Assembly: GCA_009691805.1 (NCBI GenBank)
Contig: SIAK01000003.1
Location: 1 to 64,000 of the forward strand
Length of the DNA stretch: 64,000 nt
Direction: 5' to 3'
From: Phycisphaerales bacterium
GTDB taxonomy: Bacteria; Planctomycetota; Phycisphaerae; Phycisphaerales; SM1A02
The translations under genes and the position numbers were made by a program. The notes below the pieces were generated by a model, which was given only the letters and a program-made list of their open reading frames with translations, had not been told where the DNA came from and did no database searches. Every line of letters begins with the position of its first letter. Within the stretch, counting starts at the first letter, position 1. Below are positions 26,998-28,114 of this stretch, piece by piece.

Positions 26998-28114
26998 TTA
27001 GAGTTTCAGATCGCGTTCGGTGCGTCTTCGCTTCAGCTCTGCGTCGATGAATCCCCACAGCGCTCCATTGAGCACCGTCATGGGATTGCCCACCTCATGA
27101 CCGGTGCGATGATCCTTCACGCGATTGTCGTAGAAGACATAACTGCGAATCTGATTACCCCAGTCGCGCGTGACCTTGCCTCCGGTTGCCGTTGCGATTT
27201 CTGCAATGCGTCGCTCTTCTTCGAGCTGTTCGAGTTTCGCGCGCAAGACCGTAAACGCCTGCTTGCGATTCTGCGGCTGCTCGCGAAACGTACTCGCAAC
27301 AACCTGAATGCCTGTAGGAATGTGCGTGAGTCGAATCGCGCTTGCGACCTTGTTCACGTTCTGACCACCGGGACCACTCGCGCGCACGAACGGAGTGACC
27401 TCGACATCCTTTTCAGGAATCTCGAAATCCACTTCTTCAAACTCTGGCGTCACGTCGACGGTTGCGAAACTCGTCTGGCGCTTCCCTTCTGCATTGAAAG
27501 GCGAAACGCGCGCGAGTCGATGTGCGCCGCGCTCACAACTGAGATAGCCGTAGGCGAAGAGTCCTGAGATGCGATAGCCCACTTCGCTCACGCCTGCTTC
27601 GGCGCCTGCGTTGCGATGCAATTCCTCGATCTTCCATCCCATTTCCTCGAAGAAATAGAGGTACATGCGCTCGAGCATGCCCGCCCAGTCTTCCGCTTCT
27701 GTGCCGCCCGCGCCCGCTTGAATCGTGAAGAAGCAGTTGCGGTGATCGTGCTTGGCGCCGAGGAGCGATTGCTGTTCGACTTTCTCCATCTGCGCGAGCA
27801 GATTGAAGAGTGCCTCGTCCACTTCGAGGAGAAGCGCCTTGTCGTTGCCTTCCTTCGCGAGTTCGTATCCGACCTGTGCATCTTCGAAGATGCGCGAAAC
27901 TTCTTCGAGCGGTTCGATTTGTGCGCGAACAACCTTCAGCGCTTCGATTGTTTTCTGCGCTTCCTTTTGATTGCTCCAAAAATCCTCGGCGCTCAGCCGT
28001 TCGTTCAAGAGTCGTCGCGTCTCTGCTTTGCCATCAAAGTTAAAGAGAGTCGCGAATCGTCAAAATGCGCGCCTCGAGATCTTGGAGAATGGGTTGGTGG
28101 GCGTCGAAGTGCAT
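26998..28114 (-). CDS. prfB: Peptide chain release factor 2, expressed by apparent +1 frameshift
   Basis: GGQNVNKVASAIRLTHIPTGIQV; N-terminal segment MHFDAHQPILQDLEARILTIRDSL lies in another frame (28114..28043) and rejoins at 28041 by skipping one base at CTT-TAA-C. Confidence 0.93.
28039..28045 (-). other. prfB: Programmed +1 frameshift site CTT TAA C in prfB
   Basis: Minus strand ...CGC GAC TCT CTT TAA CTT TGA TGG; the RF2 frame continues as AAC TTT GAT GGC AAA. Confidence 0.75.

Follow-up and report, generated by a model that had tools for sequence, protein, structure and literature searches.

Frameshifting in prfB, the gene for release factor 2 (RF2), is a textbook case of translational autoregulation, and the frameshifted genes considered here belong to the Phycisphaerae, an aquatic and little-studied group of Planctomycetota. 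The window that we analysed, the whole 64,000-nucleotide stretch of DNA from a Phycisphaerales bacterium, holds a prfB gene with UAA at the shift site and without a Shine-Dalgarno (SD)-like stimulator ahead of it. This raises the question of whether such a gene is still an autoregulatory switch and, if so, what occupies the place of the SD. A preliminary description of the locus had left two readings, namely that the loop senses RF1 plus RF2 or that it has decayed.

The prfB shift site and its stop codon

Read on the minus strand, the frames and coordinates assigned in the preliminary description are correct (Table 1). The 24 zero-frame codons of the leader are MHFDAHQPILQDLEARILTIRDSL, with the ATG at 28114-28112, and the minus strand around the site reads CGC GAC TCT CTT TAA C, where a +1 shift is required at 28045-28040. 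The shift-corrected RF2 has 371 aa, the length previously estimated, and scores 383 bits against a cut-off of 370 for the NCBIfam prfB model TIGR00020. In the window the RF2 frame is interrupted by a stop 6 codons 5' of the junction, and it has no ATG start in that vicinity. Translation from the internal TTG at 28008 with no upstream peptide is disfavoured because both the leader and the stem described below are conserved; in 117 of the 121 prfB genes from the order the leader ATG stands at the equivalent place, and relatives keep the peptide pattern M[HN][FY]xxH...LEARI..IRDSL.

Table 1. Features of the prfB leader, the predicted hairpin and the shift site, in window coordinates.
Feature	Position	Strand	Remarks
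prfB zero-frame leader ORF	28040..28114	-	ATG 28114, 24 codons, closed by TAA 28042-28040; read directly
Outer extension of the hairpin	28047..28075	-	G28073-C28049, A28074-T28048, G28075-C28047, past a G.A mismatch; window fold, 3 bp
Hairpin 5' arm CGCGCAT (consensus CGCGGAT)	28065..28071	-	7/7 or 6/7 pairs in the order; covariation
7-nt loop TTTGACG	28058..28064	-	Varies among relatives; codons 17-19 under little synonymous constraint
Hairpin 3' arm ATTCGCG (consensus ATCCGCG)	28051..28057	-	At the place of the SD-like stimulator; reads GCG where sister orders have GGG
Slippery P-site codon CTT (CUU-U)	28043..28045	-	CTT in 121/121 order sequences
In-frame stop TAA (UAA), then C 28039	28040..28042	-	Order: 73 TAA / 48 TGA, next base always C
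RF2 coding frame after the +1 shift (AAC = Asn25 onward)	26998..28041	-	Exceeds the TIGR00020 prfB cut-off; contains the SPF motif and GGQ

Of the marks of the prfB frameshift class, the window has an RF2 gene split by an early in-frame stop with the remainder in the +1 frame, and it has the slippery CUU-U with C behind the stop; a UGA stop and AGGGGG 3 nt before CUU are both missing. The site is that of RF2 with UGA replaced by UAA, as had been claimed, and the reported lack of an SD-like stimulator is borne out as well: no AGGGGG-like sequence lies ahead of the CTT, and ATTCGCGACTCT stands at that place. A GAGG at codons 14-15 was considered as a hidden SD farther upstream and rejected, being too distant from the CUU and missing in many relatives.

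Sampling began with 80 named loci and 60 relatives, with later additions from the order, class and phylum; the 121 distinct frameshifted genes of the order were gathered through prfB homology, except for additions from an order-wide pattern search. Among them CTT-TAA-C occurs in 73/121 and CTT-TGA-C in 48/121, CTT and the post-stop C being common to all, while TAG was not found at any of these sites. Alignment with sister genomes, a check that the preliminary description had proposed, finds TAA in each of the four genus members (the window, L005, L006 and L007), in independent assemblies recorded by different projects, which for practical purposes excludes a sequencing or base-calling error at 28040. 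The division of the order into 73 TAA and 48 TGA likewise means that TAA reflects neither sequencing error nor decay.

On a tree of RF2 built from the sequence 3' of the shift site, leader and site excluded, entire subclades are uniformly TAA, and at least 21 changes between TAA and TGA are counted, 15 of them forced by supported branches. Outside the order, the first phylum sample had TGA at every prfB site but two, both in sequences of the same class. Of the 8,164 frameshifted prfB genes covered by a 2025 survey, 1.4% had TAA, which was judged not broadly fixed in clades, and the SD was hyper-conserved (PMC12421855); the shift-site consensus has been given as YTT_TRA_C (PMC3711429). UAA at a prfB site is a rare variant already on record; its clade-wide use, together with the exchange of SD for hairpin, is the unusual part.

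The second TGA two codons on, to which the preliminary description had drawn attention, is present (28036-28034, giving a second CTT-TGA within TAA CTT TGA, 28034-28042). Only 2/121 relatives have a stop there, and we regard it as real but incidental and reject a functional role. As a separate observation, crude ORF counts over L005-L084 show neighbouring genes ending in TGA in 73% of cases at TAA-site loci and 61% at TGA-site loci, and in TAA in 12% and 28%, respectively, which runs contrary to simple expectation.

A predicted hairpin at the position of the SD

Just 5' of the shift site, prfB genes of the order carry a near-invariant element, GGCGCGGAT-N7-ATCCGCG-ACTCT-CTT-TRA-C, which is predicted to form an RNA hairpin; all 121 sequences have GGCGCGGAT-N7-ATCCGCG-ACTC[T/G/C], or a close variant, ahead of the CTT. 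This conserved hairpin at the SD position was missed in the preliminary description, whose overall interpretation is otherwise supported in part. In the fixed register, 7/7 pairs can form in 104 sequences and 6/7 in the other 17 (n=121), whereas synonymous shuffles reach 7/7 in 6%; alternative registers average fewer than 4.2 pairs and none equals the fixed one. The helix can stop exactly 3 nt before the CTT, the same distance as the E. coli SD. Codon 14 is NNG in 121/121 sequences by way of eight different codons, with a varying residue, and its invariant final G therefore provides an outer G-C pair with the base 4 nt before the CTT. In the window itself the hairpin is one of the weakest in the set: it has a C.U mismatch (28067/28055), at a pair that is G-U, A-U or G-C in the other members of the genus, and a predicted folding energy of -9.2 kcal/mol, where the mean is -13.8. 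No Rfam covariance model matches the 5' end of prfB at E values up to 5, and assignment to a known RNA family was therefore rejected.

Synonymous constraint in the order's prfB genes is greatest at the element. The identity of synonymous codons ranges from 0.74 to 1.00 over codons 14-16 and 20-26, where 0.22-0.63 would be expected, whereas loop codons 17-19 are nearly free (0.51-0.55 observed, 0.32-0.63 expected); the best 11-codon stretch, which lies here, scores +0.40, and the rest of prfB does not exceed +0.14. The pattern of covariation directly 5' of the shift site is of the RNA type. Across the class, pair 2 occurs as C-G, G-C, A-U, G-U and U-G, and no other pair of columns reaches its mutual information (0.78); pair 5 occurs as G-C, G-U, A-U and C-G. 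A subset of 50 sequences, picked to be diverse, has a covariation score of 0.269, whereas shuffles score 0.135, none of 500 as high, and slid registers reach at most 0.098. On the RF2 tree both arms switched jointly on four independent occasions, with no switches in opposite directions. Since most of the seven pairs are near-invariant or vary on one side, this support comes mainly from pairs 2 and 5.

Could the conserved stretch instead encode a nascent-peptide signal (LEARI..IRDSL), or reflect an effect of codon choice, with no RNA hairpin involved? The peptide itself is well conserved, and stimulators of that kind exist for fungal antizyme (PMC4505036). The loop residues are variable, however, and third positions are fixed, both at codon 14 (NNG through eight codons) and where Ala GCG/GCC is paired with Arg CGC/CGG. 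A peptide signal cannot account for these fixed third positions, and we hold this explanation to be most improbable.

Loss of the SD-like sequence and distribution of the element

Sister orders of the class mostly have CCCGGAT-N7-ATCCGGG-AC, whose 3' arm doubles as a weak SD-like GGGA. In the order studied here GGGA has become GCGA and the opposite arm has changed in compensation; the SD-like GGG is missing throughout the order, and the 3' end of its 16S rRNA is still CCTCCTTT, with the anti-SD intact. Because GGG became GCG while the other arm compensated, the SD-like pairing is, on the evidence of the alignments, given up in the order and the hairpin retained. Counting those of the order, 177 of the 219 class genomes match a loose form of the pattern, which itself partly selects pairing at pairs 5-7 but puts no restriction on the 3' base of pair 2. 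Sequences with the hairpin and no GGG comprise 76 TAA and 54 TGA sites, those with both hairpin and GGG 1 TAA and 106 TGA, and those with no hairpin 0 TAA and 57 TGA. These counts, with few independent SD losses on the tree, are suggestive of a tie between UAA and loss of the SD-like GGG.

Of the class sequences, 22 are frameshifted with no hairpin in the usual register, most of them with an SD-like GGG or AGGA. One class family (f111; L224, L227-L229, L232 and L245) is without the hairpin in that register and has an alternative, approximately GAGCGYC-N4-8-GRCGCTC, directly before CGGGACTCT-CTT and about 10-30 nt ahead of the CTT; this is possibly a hairpin beside an SD-like sequence, or possibly a chance product of codon usage. 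At gene starts in the window, a crude count gave an SD in 6/37, against 3/37 in controls.

The element co-occurs with the frameshift. It is present in 26 of the 31 order genomes of the phylum sample, with prfB frameshifted in all 26, and the genomes that do not have it (G016, G049, G053, G057 and G404) are exactly those with an uninterrupted prfB (5/5). It is single-copy, and a search for further copies in the genome found none, the next covariance-model match scoring 17 bits against 48. The order's form had no match at up to 3 mismatches in other classes or orders of the phylum sample, and at least 6 stem pairs occur at 1 of 37 prfB sites in other classes. Uninterrupted prfB, with the frameshift lost, was also noted in order lineages L066, L074, L079, L086, L105, L108, L175, L178, L190 and L244, and the genes of L074, L079 and L175 retain a 5-bp core of the hairpin (a CGGAT...ATCCG remnant). 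Two relatives hold a second RF2-like gene below the prfB cut-off (G025:C86:639-1589, 271 bits; G029:C45:1575-2495, 252 bits), which may be either a paralogue or bin contamination.

A GC-rich palindromic repeat close to a divergent gene pair, with an aminotransferase gene as the upstream neighbour in 39/56 loci, could also be a DNA operator or the RNA site of a regulator, for example RF2 acting on its own leader, with no connection to frameshifting. We find this scarcely likely, as the repeat keeps a constant 5-nt distance to the CTT, is missing from uninterrupted prfB genes and is found whatever the neighbouring gene, and its G-U pairs point to an RNA beside the shift site.

The same comparisons bear on decay. 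A relaxed loop, in which the SD was lost, TGA drifted to TAA and the frame break is tolerated now that autoregulation no longer matters, would fit the mismatch in the window's own hairpin, the minimum of 15-21 interchanges between TAA and TGA on the RF2 tree, as at a loosely constrained base, and the several genomes of the order that dropped the frameshift entirely. Against it, CTT, the post-stop C, the spacing, the leader length and the stem codons are kept order-wide while neighbouring codons are saturated, TAG is absent, and compensatory changes in the arms are not expected from decay. We consider it very unlikely, and the decayed loop of the preliminary description is not supported, given a zero-frame ORF, CUU-U, post-stop C, spacing and flanking codons that persist in at least 121 distinct genes.

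A proposed mechanism and its relation to known systems

In this group prfB still appears to require a ribosomal +1 frameshift. From sequence comparison, the window's prfB is in our judgement quite likely a hairpin-stimulated variant of the autoregulatory shift, in which the stop that causes the pause is often UAA. A broader reading is probable, if held a little less firmly: most of the class would use a natural, selected mRNA hairpin as its prfB stimulator, and one order would have fully swapped the SD:anti-SD duplex for it and, in doing so, largely moved from sensing RF2 alone (UGA) to sensing RF1 and RF2 together (UAA).

We infer the following course of events. When release factors are scarce, the ribosome would stall with the stop codon in the A site, and with CUU in the P site the hairpin would refold right behind the ribosome, replacing the SD:anti-SD duplex. 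It would adjoin the E-site codon UCU, into which the outer pairs would extend, and could help the E-site tRNA to leave and/or the mRNA to move forward, whereupon tRNA-Leu would slip from CUU to UUU and full-length RF2 would be produced. UAA is read by RF1 and RF2 alike, a point of the preliminary description that we support; with this stop, termination by either factor would compete against the shift, and the loop would therefore sense both. A hairpin designed to lie next to the E site, assayed in E. coli 70S extract, stimulated the +1 shift at CUUUGA to about 60% of the level given by the SD; it acted only when RF2 was absent, and its effect scaled with the stability of the stem (PMC6321510). 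By analogy, the Phycisphaerae stem may stimulate naturally as this designed hairpin does.

A hairpin in this place might alternatively insulate the shift site from upstream mispairing, or cause a pause as the ribosome approaches, with no direct stimulation, and such roles have been proposed for a luteovirus 5' stem-loop (PMC5009743). Its location exactly at the SD:anti-SD duplex position, in genes where the SD itself is lost, argues for a direct stimulator and makes these roles unlikely.

Published work describes the SD stimulator as near-universal and treats UAA as an exception that is poorly tolerated (PMC12421855). A clade in which a hairpin took the place of the stimulator and all else was kept amounts to a natural experiment. 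It suggests that what the shift requires may be a duplex next to the E site and not pairing with rRNA as such, and that a textbook self-regulating switch may have been rebuilt from a different part. It also offers matched pairs (SD with hairpin, hairpin only, UGA, UAA) with which to probe how the stimulator acts and what the loop senses. Our search of papers readable without subscription found nothing joining the Phycisphaerae with release-factor frameshifting and nothing on this element, which we provisionally regard as new.

With E. coli-type prfB (AGGGGG-N3-CUU-UGA-C) the order's genes share the gene itself, the leader length, CUU-U, the post-stop C, the position of the stimulator and, presumably, the autoregulatory logic. 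They differ in having an mRNA hairpin as putative stimulator instead of an SD, and in the stop: 60% of the distinct genes in the order have UAA, on which RF1 should act too. The rare TAA sites reported for prfB (PMC12421855) likewise combine CTT-TAA with RF2 in the +1 frame, but that survey reports them as scattered, with the SD hyper-conserved, whereas the order lacks the SD and has entire subclades with TAA. The designed refolding hairpin (PMC6321510; earlier PMC3639245) also lies beside the E site and mimics the SD:anti-SD duplex; it is artificial and has 12 bp, whereas the Phycisphaerae hairpin is natural, has 7 bp plus 1 to 3 outer pairs, and is selected in most of the class. The bypassing of T4 gene 60 (PMC5009743) similarly involves a 5' stem-loop at the mRNA exit that is proposed to drive mRNA movement, but there a 50-nt bypass is combined with a nascent-peptide signal, whereas in prfB the shift is of 1 nt at a stop codon.
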